From assembly GCF_003934165.1 (NCBI RefSeq), contig NZ_RKST01000019.1, forward strand, positions 1 through 64,000: a DNA stretch of 64,000 bases. Reading direction: 5' to 3'. The notes below the pieces were generated by a model that was given only the letters and a program-made list of their open reading frames with translations, was not told the origin of the DNA and made no database searches. The stretch comes from Borborobacter arsenicus. GTDB taxonomy: Bacteria; Pseudomonadota; Alphaproteobacteria; Rhizobiales; Rhizobiaceae. The translations under genes and the position numbers were made by a program. Below, piece after piece: positions 27,613 to 45,940 of the stretch (the first letter of the stretch is position 1; the number at the start of each line of letters is the position of its first letter).

Positions 27613-27772
27613 CCACCCCCCTCTGGCCTGCCGGCCATCTCCCCCTCAAGGGGGGAGATCAGCAGAGCCAACTTCGCCACCTATTCTGCAACGTTGGCGA
27701 TTGGGTGAGGTCGTGGCGAAAGCTAATCTCCCCCCTTGAGGGGGAGATGCCCGGCAGGGCAGAGGGGGGTGG
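27613..27772. repeat. Large intergenic palindromic repeat
   Basis: Two 47-base arms (27613-27659 and 27726-27772) are inverted copies with 2 mismatches, separated by 66 bases. Each arm itself contains CTCCCCCCTTGAGGGGGAG-like symmetry. It resembles the abundant palindromic intergenic elements of Mesorhizobium/Brucella (RIME or Bru-RS type); family membership is inferred. The right arm ends 3 bases before the first cimA ATG. Confidence 0.85.
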
Positions 27773-27775
27773 TTC

Positions 27776-29425
27776 ATGTCCGCCAAGGCAAGATTGGGCA
27801 TGGCAATGACCGTGAAACAACGCATTTATCTCTACGACACCACGCTGCGTGACGGCCAGCAGACGCCGGGTATCGACTTTTCGGTGGAAGACAAGCTGGC
27901 GGTGGCCAAGATGCTGGACGAGTTCGGCCTCGATTATGTCGAGGGCGGCTATCCTGGCGCCAATCCGACCGATACGGCGTTTTTCACCGGAAAGCGCACC
28001 AAGCGGGCGAAGTTTTCCGCTTTCGGCATGACCAAGCGGGCGGGCGTCTCTGTGTCGAACGACCCGGGACTGGCCGTTCTCTTGCAGGCCGAGGCGGACA
28101 CCGTGTGCTTCGTCGCCAAGAGCTGGGACTATCATGTGCGCGTGGCGCTCGGCTGTTCCAATGAAGAGAATCTGGAAGCGATTGCAGCGTCGGTCGAGGC
28201 GGCACGCGACGCCGGCAGGGAAGCGCTGGTCGATTGCGAGCATTTCTTCGACGGCTTCAAGGCCAATCCAGACTACGCGCTGGCTTGCGCGCGCACCGCA
28301 TTTGAGGCTGGCGCGCGCTGGGTGGTGCTGTGCGACACCAATGGCGGAACTCAACCCTCGGAAGTGCGCACAATTGTCGAACAAGTCATAGCGTGTGGTA
28401 TTCCGGGCGAAAATCTCGGCATTCACGCCCATGACGATACCGGGCAGGCGGTGGCCAATTCGCTTGCCGCGGTGGAGGCCGGGGTGCGCCAGATCCAGGG
28501 CACGCTGAATGGCATCGGCGAGCGCTGCGGCAATGCCGACCTGATCACGATCATTCCCACACTGATGCTGAAGCCTGCCTTCGCCGACCGCTTTGAGACC
28601 GGCATTTCGGCTGAGGCGCTTGCCGGCGTCTCCAGGCTGTCGCGCGGCTTCGACGAATTGCTCAACCGTGCGCCGGAAGCGCAGGCGCCCTATGTCGGCG
28701 CCTCGGCCTTCGCCACCAAGGCCGGCATCCATGCCTCGGCGCTGGCCAAGGAGCCGCAGACCTATGAGCATGTACCGCCGGAATCGGTCGGCAACCGGCG
28801 CAGGGTCATGGTGTCGGACCAGGGCGGCAGGGCGAATTTCGTCACCGAACTGAAACGGCGCGGCATTGAAATACCGAAGGACGGCCATAAGCTTGATGCG
28901 CTGATCGCCGTGGTCAAGGAGCGCGAGGCCGAGGGCTACGCCTATGAGGGTGCGGATGCGAGCTTCGAGCTCCTGGCGCGGCGCATGCTGCATACGGTGC
29001 CGGATTTCTTCCGCGTCACCAGCTTTCGCTGCATGGTCGAGCGGCGCTTCGACGCCAATGGCGTGCTGAAGACGATCTCCGAAGCGGTGGTCAAGGTGAC
29101 CATCGATGGCGAGGAGAAGATGTCGGTTGCCGAGGGCAGGGGGCCGGTCAATGCGCTTGACGTTGCCCTGCGCAAGGATCTTGGCAAGTTCCAGACCGAG
29201 ATCGGTGACCTGGAACTGGCTGACTACAAGGTGCGCATCCTCAATGGCGGCACCGAGGCGGTGACGCGGGTCCTGATCGAATCGCGCGATTCGACCGGTG
29301 CGCGCTGGTCGACGGTGGGTGTCTCCGACAACATCATCGACGCTTCCTTCCAGGCGCTGATGGATTCCATCGTCTACAAGCTGATGAAGAACCGCGAAAT
29401 GGCGGGTCTGGTGGCCGCCGAATAG
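27776..29425 (+). CDS. cimA: Citramalate synthase (LeuA-like, CimA type)
   Basis: HMGL/isopropylmalate-synthase family enzyme, most like (R)-citramalate synthase, condensing pyruvate and acetyl-CoA in a threonine-independent route to isoleucine; up to 549 residues. YDTTLRDGQQTPG holds the catalytic Arg-Asp, HAHDDTGQAVANS the metal histidines, and NGIGERCGNADL follows. The regulatory LeuA-dimer domain occupies the last 130 residues. Start uncertain: ATG at 27776, 27800 or 27806; the first uses G-rich sequence from the palindromic repeat as ribosome site. Confidence 0.88.
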   Translation: MSAKARLGMAMTVKQRIYLYDTTLRDGQQTPGIDFSVEDKLAVAKMLDEFGLDYVEGGYPGANPTDTAFFTGKRTKRAKFSAFGMTKRAGVSVSNDPGLAVLLQAEADTVCFVAKSWDYHVRVALGCSNEENLEAIAASVEAARDAGREALVDCEHFFDGFKANPDYALACARTAFEAGARWVVLCDTNGGTQPSEVRTIVEQVIACGIPGENLGIHAHDDTGQAVANSLAAVEAGVRQIQGTLNGIGERCGNADLITIIPTLMLKPAFADRFETGISAEALAGVSRLSRGFDELLNRAPEAQAPYVGASAFATKAGIHASALAKEPQTYEHVPPESVGNRRRVMVSDQGGRANFVTELKRRGIEIPKDGHKLDALIAVVKEREAEGYAYEGADASFELLARRMLHTVPDFFRVTSFRCMVERRFDANGVLKTISEAVVKVTIDGEEKMSVAEGRGPVNALDVALRKDLGKFQTEIGDLELADYKVRILNGGTEAVTRVLIESRDSTGARWSTVGVSDNIIDASFQALMDSIVYKLMKNREMAGLVAAE

Positions 29426-36600: not shown

Positions 36601-38847
36601 CTATGCGGCGGCCACGATTCCGAGCCGCTGCAGCGCCATTTGTCTGACCGCGGCATAGTCGATCCGTCCGGAATCGAGCCGGGGCAGGTCCGCGATCGTG
36701 ATGATGTCATGCGGGATTAACCGGTCGCTCGCCCCGGCAAGCCTGCCGAATTGCCGCAGCAGATCGGGCTCGTCGGCGGTGGTGACCAGCGTGACCTGTT
36801 CGCCCTTGTGCTTATCGGGAACGGCGATGGCCGCATGCTGGCCATCGGGCCAGAGCTGACAGGCAAGGGCTTCGACCGCGTCGAGGGAAACGATCTCGCC
36901 GCCGACGCTGGCAATGCGCCCGGCGCGGCCCATCACGGTCAGGAATCCTTCGCGGTCGACGTCGACGATATCGCCGGTGTCGTGCCAGCCATCGCCCAAA
37001 GCCTGGAGCACGCCGGGTTGCGAGGCGCGCATATAGCCGAGCATCAGATTGGGCCCCTGGATCAGCAGGCGACCGGCCTGCGGGATGCCGCTGACCGGTT
37101 CAAGCTTCATGCGCATGCCCGGAAGCAGACGGCCGGCCGTGCCCTCCCGGTTGTGGGTGGCGGTGTTGATGGAAACGACAGGAGCAGCCTCGGTCAGGCC
37201 AAAACCTTCCACGATGCGCGCGCCAAAGCGCTCACGCCAGATGCGCCGGGTCTCGTCATCGACAGTTCCGGTGCCGACCATGGCGAAACGCAGGCCCGAA
37301 AGGTTGAAGTTTTCCGCAAGCCGGCCATGGGCGGCGAGGGACGTGTCGTTGCCCAGGATGATGCTTGGCCTGATCTTTGCCGCAATGGCTGCTTCCCGCT
37401 GCGAACCGAGGGCTTCGCGGTCAAGCAGAAGCCTGGCTCCCGCCAGAAGCGGCAGGACAATGCCGCCGGTGAGGCTGAAGGTGCGCGATACAGGCAGGAG
37501 GTTGAGCAGGCTGTCGTCAAGACCGATGCTGAGGCGCGCCTCAAGCTGGCGGGCATTGGCCAGAAGATTGGCGTGCGACAGCACGACCGCCTTGGGATCC
37601 GCCTCCCGGCCGGAAGTGAACAGAATTGCGGCCGGCGTCGCCGCTTCCTGGCGCATATGGACGGGCCACCACCACAAGGCTGCCGCCACGAGTTTTTCAG
37701 CGATCGTGATGTTCTTGCGGACGTCTTCCAGCCAGACGAACTTTGCACCGCCTTTTTCTGCCGCCTCAACGGCTTGCGAGAGGCCGGCATTGGCAATGAA
37801 GCTGCGTGAGGAGACGACGGTGCGCACAAGCGCGGTGCGAATGGCGGTGGTGATGCCGGCTGATTGCGTCTCGGGCTTGATCATTGCCGCAACGCGGTCG
37901 CCGGACCAGAGCGCAAGGAGCGAGACTACCATGTCGGCAGTGTTCGGCAGCAGCACGCCGACGGCTTCGCCCGGCGCGGTCACGGAGGCAAAGCGATGGC
38001 CAAATGTGCGGGCGCCGACAAAAAGCTGCCTGTAGCTCAGCGTTGCGTGCATCCGGCCCGATTCGGCTTGCTCAAAGCTCTCGACGATCGGGTGGTGTGG
38101 GCCATAGCGGAAGGCTGCGTCGCGGAGTGCCAGGAACAGGCTGCGCTTTGGATCGGGTGCGGCAAGGCGAGCTTCCGCCAGGCGGTCGAACAGGGCATTC
38201 GATGCGCGAGCTGGCTGCTTGATACTGAGCGCCATCAGCTCGGCGATGGTTATCGGCTCCAGCGTATTGACGGAAAGGCGCGGGAAAAGCCGCCTGCGCC
38301 CGTCTGTCGCCCTGCTGCGGGAAAAAGGCAGATATCGCGCCTCGCCGACGAATATCGGCACAACCTTCGCATCGGCCCGCAGCGCGATGCGTGCCACGGC
38401 ACGAAATAGCCGATAGGTCTTTGTGTCGGGCTCGATGGTGTCGGGCAGGTAGACGGCAAGGCGGCCCCTGCCTTTCAGGACGCGCACCAGGCGCCGGCTG
38501 ACGAAGACATGCTCGGCCTTGAAGACGATGGTGCGGGCGAGGGCCCGCCATGGCTCCAGCCAGGGCGAGCGTGCGGATTCATCGTCGAGGATATGCAGCG
38601 TATCCTCCGGCAGCAGTGAAAGCATCAGGGCCGGATCGAGACGGGATTGATGCGTGATCGCGTAGATGACGGGGGTCTGCACCGCGCGCGCAGCGCGGAC
38701 TTTTCGGTCGCGGATGCGATAGACGAGCTTCAGCGGCACATAAAGCAGTGCCTGGCGAAACCCCAGTCGAAGTCGGACAATCTGGAGAATGGCCACAGCC
38801 AGATAGGCTGCGACGATACCCAGCGCGATGCTGCTGGCAAGGATCAT
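36601..38847 (-). CDS. Fused 1-acyltransferase / AMP-dependent acyl-ACP(CoA) ligase
   Basis: 748 residues resembling E. coli Aas. An N-terminal membrane segment is followed by a PlsC-like domain with HQSRLD (His66, Asp71; the H-x4-D motif), then an acyl-adenylate-forming domain: a divergent P-loop ILFTSGREADPKAV (usual form TSGTTGxPK), EGFGLTEAAPV and GWHDTGDIVDVDREGFL. Probably reacylates lysophospholipids or activates free fatty acids. Located tail-to-tail with pssA, so it joins a phospholipid cluster. GGGGAG precedes the ATG. Confidence 0.82.
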   Translation of the reverse strand: MILASSIALGIVAAYLAVAILQIVRLRLGFRQALLYVPLKLVYRIRDRKVRAARAVQTPVIYAITHQSRLDPALMLSLLPEDTLHILDDESARSPWLEPWRALARTIVFKAEHVFVSRRLVRVLKGRGRLAVYLPDTIEPDTKTYRLFRAVARIALRADAKVVPIFVGEARYLPFSRSRATDGRRRLFPRLSVNTLEPITIAELMALSIKQPARASNALFDRLAEARLAAPDPKRSLFLALRDAAFRYGPHHPIVESFEQAESGRMHATLSYRQLFVGARTFGHRFASVTAPGEAVGVLLPNTADMVVSLLALWSGDRVAAMIKPETQSAGITTAIRTALVRTVVSSRSFIANAGLSQAVEAAEKGGAKFVWLEDVRKNITIAEKLVAAALWWWPVHMRQEAATPAAILFTSGREADPKAVVLSHANLLANARQLEARLSIGLDDSLLNLLPVSRTFSLTGGIVLPLLAGARLLLDREALGSQREAAIAAKIRPSIILGNDTSLAAHGRLAENFNLSGLRFAMVGTGTVDDETRRIWRERFGARIVEGFGLTEAAPVVSINTATHNREGTAGRLLPGMRMKLEPVSGIPQAGRLLIQGPNLMLGYMRASQPGVLQALGDGWHDTGDIVDVDREGFLTVMGRAGRIASVGGEIVSLDAVEALACQLWPDGQHAAIAVPDKHKGEQVTLVTTADEPDLLRQFGRLAGASDRLIPHDIITIADLPRLDSGRIDYAAVRQMALQRLGIVAAA

Positions 38848-38993: not shown

Positions 38994-39023
38994 AAAGAAA
39001 AAAGCCGGCGCGAGGCCGGCTTT
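38994..39023 (-). terminator. Rho-independent terminator (minus strand)
   Basis: Perfect 9-bp stem AAAGCCGGC (39001-39009) / GCCGGCTTT (39015-39023) with a 5-base loop. On the minus strand it runs into TTTTTTCTTT; on the plus strand there is no T run, so it terminates minus-strand transcription. No minus-strand protein gene precedes it. Confidence 0.85.
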
Positions 39024-39075
39024 GAGTAAGGGTTGGACGGGTGAGGGGGATGGGGGGTGGTGTACCCGTCCGCCA
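38994..39075 (-). ncRNA. Candidate stress-induced small RNA with C-rich loop
   Basis: About 80-nt transcript predicted from an EcfG-type promoter to a strong terminator. The first hairpin is an 8-bp perfect stem (39064-39071 with 39035-39042) that exposes a 21-base loop containing CACCCCCC and TCCCCC, anti-Shine-Dalgarno-like sequences typical of trans-acting small RNAs of Rhizobiales. The second hairpin is the terminator. No start codon with a ribosome site lies inside. Possibly related to EcfG-controlled RNAs (EcsR/GsrN-like); that relation is inferred from promoter type and structure only. Confidence 0.65.
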
Positions 39076-39079
39076 AGAG

Positions 39080-39104
39080 AACGCACGGGAGGCAAAAGGG
39101 TTCC
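39080..39104 (-). promoter_or_regulatory. EcfG-type (general stress response) promoter
   Basis: On the minus strand: GGAAC (39104-39100), 16-base spacer, CGTT (39083-39080), the consensus of the alphaproteobacterial general-stress sigma factor EcfG. Transcription should start near 39073-39075. Confidence 0.65.
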
Positions 39105-39112
39105 CGCAATTA

Positions 39113-39375
39113 GGGTCAGGACCTATTAATATGATCGAAAATGGCGCCTGAAACGGCGATGAGATGCCAGGAGAAGCCCGCCGGTCGATGTGGTTCATCG
39201 GCCAAGGGCCTCGACGCCGCAGCTCGAAGCCGTTTCGGCGTCCTTCGGATGTGGTCCCTCTGGCCGGCTACTTTGTTGAAAAGGCTTGAAAATGACGACA
39301 TTTCCTGCGCCTTTTCTCCTCGTATCCAGCCAGATGGTCTCACACCATTTCGACCAGATTAACAGGTCCTGACCC
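39113..39375. mobile_element. MITE with TA target duplication (IS630/mariner-like)
   Basis: Terminal inverted repeats start GGGTCAGGACCT (39113 onwards; complement ending at 39375); over 20 terminal bases they differ at 2 positions. TA flanks both ends (39111-39112, 39376-39377), the target duplication of IS630/Tc1/mariner elements. The 263-bp interior has no transposase, so it would be non-autonomous. Short frames inside on both strands lack ribosome sites. Confidence 0.75.
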
Positions 39376-39380
39376 TAGCT

Positions 39381-39575
39381 TCAGCGCATCAAGCCATGCG
39401 TGGCCGTCGAGCCTTCATTCCAGTCGCGCCCCGCATGTGAAAAGACTGCGGCGAGCACGATCGTGCCGCCGAAGAGATTGGCCGCCGGCGGAATTTCCGC
39501 CAGAAATGACGGAAGCCAGGGCGAATGACGCACCGAACGCCGCAAGCAGCGCGGCGTCGCGGATCGATATTTCAC
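39381..39575 (-). pseudogene. C-terminal remnant of an EamA/DMT transporter
   Basis: The last 40 codons read FLAEIPPAANLFGGTIVLAAV then a short tail to a stop at 39381, very like the final helix of EamA-type transporters (GExPxxxxxxGGxxxLxAV). The preceding membrane-like residues (DAALLAAFGASFALASVI) are in another frame, so the fragment is frameshifted and has no N-terminal part. It starts 3 bases from the MITE's right TA. Confidence 0.45.
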
Positions 39576-45916: not shown

Positions 45917-45940
45917 GACCGGCAGGCCAGAGGAGGGTGG
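45915..45940 (-). repeat. Degenerate half-copy of the palindromic repeat at radA start
   Basis: On the minus strand it matches the first 26 bases of the repeat arm beginning at 27613 with 24 identities (starting CCACCC, then CCTCTGGCCTGCCGG). No inverted partner is found nearby, so it is a fragment. It overlaps the first bases of the radA start codon. Confidence 0.6.

Follow-up and report, generated by a model that had tools for sequence, protein, structure and literature searches.

A short arrangement of elements on the minus strand of the window (the whole stretch of Borborobacter arsenicus DNA analysed here, 64,000 nucleotides in length) raises the question of whether it encodes a small RNA (sRNA) of the general stress response. 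The initial annotation had taken the arrangement for an sRNA gene that is controlled by EcfG and whose RNA has a C-rich loop, and the conservation of these sequence features in relatives supports that reading.

Architecture of the locus

Base for base, the minus strand contains the motif that had been described, namely GGAAC (39104-39100), 16 intervening nucleotides and CGTT (39083-39080), followed by a terminator with a T run. The relevant features are as follows:

39100..39104, minus strand: -35 element GGAAC of an EcfG-type promoter; exact match, in the same place in 37 of 43 model matches
39080..39083, minus strand: -10 element CGTT, 16 nucleotides after GGAAC; of the 37 promoter-bearing matches, 32 have GTT and 5 have ATT
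38994..39076, minus strand: proposed sRNA gene, about 80 nt; covariance model R2, among whose sequences is the window RNA itself, matches 38995-39071 with 68.1 bits (E 2e-12)
39035..39071, minus strand: hairpin 1, with an 8-bp stem and a 21-nt loop; from the fold, covariation and a C-rich loop in 33 of 33 sequences
38994..39023, minus strand: intrinsic terminator, stem 39023-39001 plus U tail; from the fold, with 7 of 9 stem pairs changed on both sides
36601..38847, minus strand: acyltransferase and AMP-binding ligase gene (Pfam PF01553, PF00501)

The 5' end of the sRNA would probably lie a few bases past the -10 element, and its 3' end would fall in the U run. The 8-bp hairpin expected to expose two C runs appears in the fold at 39071-39035: its arms, GGACGGGU and ACCCGUCC (39071-39064 paired with 39042-39035), enclose a loop (39063-39043) that holds a run of six C (39057-39052) and a run of five (39049-39045). 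The fold energy of the 86-nt RNA is -29.5 kcal/mol, compared with -17.0 (sd 2.6) for shuffled sequences (z = -4.8), and none of 200 shuffles was as low.

The RNA had also been said to contain no protein gene, and no conserved one was found when its open reading frames (ORFs) were compared with 12 related loci. None of three minus-strand ORFs across the RNA is matched in these loci at E<=1e-3. A plus-strand ORF of 160 codons does find matches in 10 of them, but these begin at its first residues, where it runs antisense to the ligase gene. Across 33 aligned RNAs the lengths cover all three residues modulo 3, and some frame of at least 10 codons is present in 21 of them. No Rfam 15 family reaches its gathering threshold in the window or in the 12 related loci; the best sub-threshold sRNA family is SorX (16.4 bits against a threshold of 46.6).

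Conservation and distribution in relatives

Taken alone, the promoter motif in the window is no more than chance would give and is not significant: it was seen once against 0.43 expected, and at least one occurrence was found in 34 of 100 shuffles of the window. Genome-wide, GGAAC followed after 16 or 17 nucleotides by CGTT occurs 83 times, below the 169 occurrences of the reversed control pattern. The locus stands above chance because promoter, hairpin, C-rich loop and terminator are conserved jointly.

A BLASTn search of the family with the locus matched 115 of 247 genomes at E<=0.01, many at the terminator end only. Relatives with the whole arrangement, picked by requiring the promoter, a C run and a T run, served as seeds, and a covariance model (R1) was built from six RNAs trimmed to leave out the promoter. 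Since R1 was built without it, the sequence upstream of R1 matches provides an independent test of the promoter. At E<=1e-5, R1 yielded 43 matches, which include close relatives, so that they are not independent and all counts among them are inflated by kinship. GGAAC-N17-(G/A)TT stands directly before the hairpin in 37 of the 43, with a spacer of 17 in all 37; when the six seeds, chosen with a promoter, are excluded, it is present in 31 of 37 matches. Control windows of equal size taken 100, 200 and 300 bases further up contain GGAAC in 1 of 129 cases. For a smaller set of 33 loci, GGAAC is present in 30 of 33 against 0 of 99 control windows.

The promoter is absent from its usual place in six of the 43 matches. 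Two genomes of one genus (G136 and G041) have GCAACC...CATT where it usually stands. The match in G104 is an RNA of the general stress (GSR) locus, with its promoter one hairpin further upstream, and the match in G288 is a two-hairpin sequence resembling that of G104. Two extra copies in G089, on contigs C118 and C125 (L354, L046), likewise have no promoter. G089 holds three copies of the RNA in all, and G002 holds two, the extra one of which (contig C8, 108943-109012; L010, L044) has an EcfG-type promoter. In 15 more family loci, the majority from Mesorhizobium and nine of them picked by a pattern that requires GGAACC, the -10 element ends in ATT in 12 and in GTT in three. Twenty loci from outside the family were viewed as well, and none of them bears the promoter at this position.

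A side observation concerns the -10 element itself, which in most Mesorhizobium copies is CATT for CGTT at nearly unchanged spacing (L136, L177, L185, L186, L188). The change from GTT to ATT in this genus perhaps reflects a shift in promoter strength or sigma preference.

The RNA structure is conserved along with the promoter. Among 35 matches, changes on both sides are seen in 8 of 8 stem pairs of hairpin 1 and in 7 of 9 pairs of the terminator stem, and in neither case did any of 500 shuffles reach the observed value; the alignment underlying these counts was fitted to the model structure, and 2 of its 35 rows are spurious antisense matches. With the antisense rows dropped, pairing is retained in 253 of 264 stem cells (33 rows). 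Counted over the 19 distinct combinations of arms, 145 of 152 base pairs can form, compared with a mean fraction of 0.78 and a maximum of 0.89 in 1000 trials with the arms shuffled. The initial annotation had staked its proposal on a loop conserved in relatives, and the covariance search recovered one that is C-rich in 33 of 33 sequences: every loop contains a C run of at least four, the mean composition is 62% C and 7% G, and the stem is present in the minimum-energy fold of all 33.

The RNA is far from universal in the family. At E<=1e-5, R1 matches 41 of 297 family genomes, spread over 20 of 109 genera by our count from the listing, and leaves 256 of the 297 without a match; all four genomes of the genus carry the RNA. 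At E<=0.01 the number rises to 91 of 297 genomes, many of the matches being weak. Matches above E 1e-5 were not counted as members, a cut-off that omits some true ones. Twenty further loci were viewed. Nine of these are strong matches, six of them with the promoter; the other 11, weaker matches or matches from the order search, include one with promoter and C-rich hairpin (G052), three that look like the two-hairpin type (G236, G179, G174) and seven that show neither. The order-wide search covered 397 genomes including the family and gave matches in 55 at E<=0.001, the best outside the family scoring 41.8 bits.

In another family of the order, five loci (L113, L114, L117, L121, L122) show a different hairpin with a C-rich loop, followed by a terminator; its stem resembles GGCCCGGU...ACCGGGCC, and there is no GGAAC promoter. 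This is perhaps another C-loop sRNA with another promoter.

A pattern scan of named genomes gave at least 119 matching stretches. Among the 80 matches listed, 12 are labelled Mesorhizobium, and their carriers include M. ciceri WSM1271, M. huakuii NBRC 15243, M. jarvisii LMG 28313 and M. zhangyense. All 12 of these loci match R2, at 59.6-71 bits, and nine other loci among the matches listed have no R2 match at E<=0.01.

Proposed function and alternative readings

We consider it quite likely that the locus encodes a trans-acting general-stress sRNA of about 80 nt, whose C-rich loop would pair with G-rich mRNA sites in the manner of GsrN of Caulobacter. In the mechanism that we propose, PhyR would remove the anti-sigma factor NepR and EcfG-RNA polymerase would then transcribe the sRNA from a start a few bases ahead of the 8-bp hairpin, which would keep the C-rich loop open. 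The strong intrinsic terminator would end the transcript with a U tail that would be suited to Hfq. The C runs would pair with G-rich stretches of several mRNAs, either Shine-Dalgarno sequences or G tracts in leaders, and this pairing would change the translation or stability of those mRNAs. The comparison shows that promoter sequence, hairpin, loop and terminator are present and conserved jointly; that the window RNA is transcribed, depends on EcfG, binds Hfq and base-pairs with mRNA targets is inferred. By analogy with GsrN in Caulobacter, it probably adjusts mRNAs under stress.

The genes on either side suggest other readings. The RNA could be the leader of the downstream acyltransferase/ligase gene, with an EcfG promoter and an attenuator controlling read-through, and the gene does share the orientation of the RNA and begins 148 bases beyond it. 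It lies close downstream in 4 of 4 genomes of the genus, and in 14 of 28 loci a gene of the same family is no more than four ORFs away. Among five viewed Mesorhizobium loci, a ligase-like gene is visible in three (L177, L186, L206), yet in three (L177, L185, L186) the gene after the RNA is on the opposite strand; we take this opposite-strand gene to be LysR-like. Opposite-strand ORFs also intervene in G003, G089 and G271, and the neighbours are different ones in G131/G196, G153/G267/G046 and G158/G219, with promoter, hairpin and terminator retained throughout. We therefore regard a leader function as improbable. It is still harder to see in the locus a mere terminator serving the transporter gene upstream, or an sRNA processed from the 3' end of that gene's transcript. 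The transporter gene does precede the RNA in four of the five Mesorhizobium loci, the fifth being cut by the locus end, and in 7 of 28 loci its end lies on the same strand as the hairpin, about 44-62 bases ahead of it. The promoter, however, is located between the transporter gene and the hairpin, and at other loci the upstream gene differs. Moreover, neither a promoter nor a conserved C-rich first hairpin would be required for termination. The window itself retains at 39414-39570 (minus strand) a remnant of the C-terminal part of the transporter, a gene present beside the RNA in relatives and EamA-like by a weak, below-cut-off Pfam match of a 60-residue piece; the RNA is nonetheless intact, and we hold this reading to be highly improbable. 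Varied neighbours in other genera argue against both leader and mere terminator.

The RNA is intact in the window despite a repeat as well as the transporter remnant. This MITE-like repeat (39111-39377) has inverted ends GGGTCAGGACCT...AGGTCCTGACCC between TA dinucleotides and lies 6-8 bases upstream of the sRNA -35 box; six copies of 242-270 bases are present in the genome, and one in G001.

The targets of the proposed sRNA were sought in the window by pairing of the loop with gene-start regions. Pairing at <=-12 kcal/mol was obtained for 12 of 45 regions compared with 18% of controls, a proportion little above control. The best partner, at -29.5 kcal/mol, is found ahead of a LeuA-type synthase ORF at 27776 and is no artefact of the RNA's own antisense; the two best both fall in copies of a short intergenic repeat, GGCAGGGCAGAGGGGGGTG and variants, at 27614-27632 (minus strand), 27753-27771 (plus) and 45921-45939 (plus). 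These three copies compare with 0.04 expected in the window; the repeat stands just before the ORFs at 27776 and 45937, and its G run can pair with the C-rich loop. Genome-wide, GCAGAGGGGGG occurs 7 times compared with once for the control. The gene katG was rejected as a shared target: no katG-type peroxidase (PF00141) was found in the B. arsenicus genome, and in the three other genomes of the genus, where PF00141 is present, no conserved G tract precedes the gene. GsrN activates katG, and the sign of regulation by the window RNA is therefore not to be assumed; the repression of many mRNAs put forward in the initial annotation is a conjecture.

Both the pairing figures and the negative result for katG would suit a different role, that of a protein-binding or sponge RNA whose C-rich loop would titrate a protein or a second RNA. 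No result here indicates such a partner, and in the case of GsrN pairing of the C-rich loop with a G tract in an mRNA has been demonstrated (PMC5869019, in excerpt); we judge this role to be quite improbable, and pairing with mRNAs stays the reading that we prefer.

The general stress locus and two-hairpin RNAs

In the B. arsenicus genome, contig C7 encodes PhyR and NepR together with an adjacent ECF sigma factor, and the sRNA lies on contig C15, that is, not near phyR-nepR-ecfG. Within 19.5 kb around NepR, inspection of GTT sites by eye found no GGAAC...GTT site followed by a C-rich hairpin, and the best R2 score at the GSR locus is 22 bits. In relatives, seven R1 matches lie 2.3-2.7 kb upstream of NepR. 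We compared about 40 GSR regions, eight of which had been chosen for having a match. In seven of them (L278-L283 and L285, from G104, G073, G035, G065, G086, G063 and G108) an EcfG-type promoter is followed, about 2.6 kb upstream of NepR, by two C-rich hairpins and a terminator, and R2 scores 38-63 bits on all eight; in the other 32 regions, a promoter with a C-rich stretch was seen by eye in two (G005, G101). No Rfam family matches the two-hairpin RNAs.

The second hairpin, linker and terminator of the GSR-locus RNAs resemble the window RNA. Judged from this resemblance, common descent is suggested, and it is put no higher because scores of up to 42 bits are also reached outside the family without a promoter. 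A more elaborate history is conceivable, although we think it rather unlikely. The window RNA would be a dispersed, shortened form of a GsrN-like RNA of the GSR locus, made up of the second C-rich hairpin, the linker and the terminator. Equipped with an EcfG promoter, this unit would have moved away from the phyR locus, reached Mesorhizobium and further genera of the family, been copied in some genomes (as in G002 and G089) and replaced the two-hairpin RNA in its carriers, so that one stress regulon would be served by mobile, interchangeable C-loop RNAs. The dispersed and two-hairpin RNAs occur together in G086, and we do not claim that they exclude each other, the sample of about 40 regions, eight of them match-chosen, being small and biased.

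If the proposed function is correct, the general stress response of some rhizobia and their relatives would have a conserved RNA arm without an Rfam family. GsrN is central to stress survival in Caulobacter, yet Rfam holds no family for the window RNA. With the covariance model and the named Mesorhizobium loci, the sRNA can be studied directly in genetically tractable strains, and the contrast of dispersed RNAs with one hairpin and GSR-locus RNAs with two offers a natural test of what the number of C-rich loops does.

Comparison with known sRNAs

Excerpts of the literature on GsrN and on EcfG-linked, RpoE2, C-rich-loop and Rhizobiales/Mesorhizobium sRNAs, including PMC3616915, PMC3927594 and PMC7143759, contain no description of this RNA. 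For Mesorhizobium huakuii 7653R a list of 40 candidate sRNAs has been published, and one of them could correspond to the window RNA (PMC5596092, in excerpt).

Several described sRNAs share its main traits. The SmelA075/SmelA099 family of Rhizobiales is likewise stress-linked and has C-rich anti-Shine-Dalgarno loops, but its members have three or four hairpins, each with the loop CCUCCUCCC (PMC3927594, in excerpt). ReC64 of Rhizobium etli, known here by its description rather than by its loops, is 88 nt long and is located downstream of phyR-tcrY with an EcfG promoter (PMC3892343, in excerpt). The GSR-locus RNAs of relatives sit at about the same place. The window RNA shares the EcfG-type promoter with ReC64 and the seven GSR-locus RNAs, whereas it lies away from the phyR locus, beside which they are found, and has a single C-rich hairpin where those seven carry two.

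The closest comparison is with GsrN, a sigma-T-dependent sRNA of Caulobacter that activates katG by pairing of its C-rich 5' loop with a G tract (this and the further points on GsrN from excerpts of PMC5869019). Both RNAs combine a general-stress promoter, a C-rich loop exposed in a 5' hairpin and an intrinsic terminator, and they are of similar size (about 100 nt for GsrN, about 80 nt for the window RNA). They differ in the loop, where GsrN has six tandem C and the window RNA two C runs, and in the target katG, which the B. arsenicus genome lacks as far as our search found. BLASTn matches of GsrN are confined to Caulobacteraceae; the window RNA was compared with it by description. GsrN-like RNAs near the GSR locus of Rhizobiaceae have already been proposed, proximity to that locus being the criterion used outside Caulobacteraceae, although C. 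crescentus gsrN is itself distal; the initial annotation named neither GsrN nor these RNAs. Because the window RNA lies away from the GSR locus and the link to katG fails, we do not file it as GsrN itself. It is better placed in a new family of its own among the EcfG-driven C-loop sRNAs, a kind already known.
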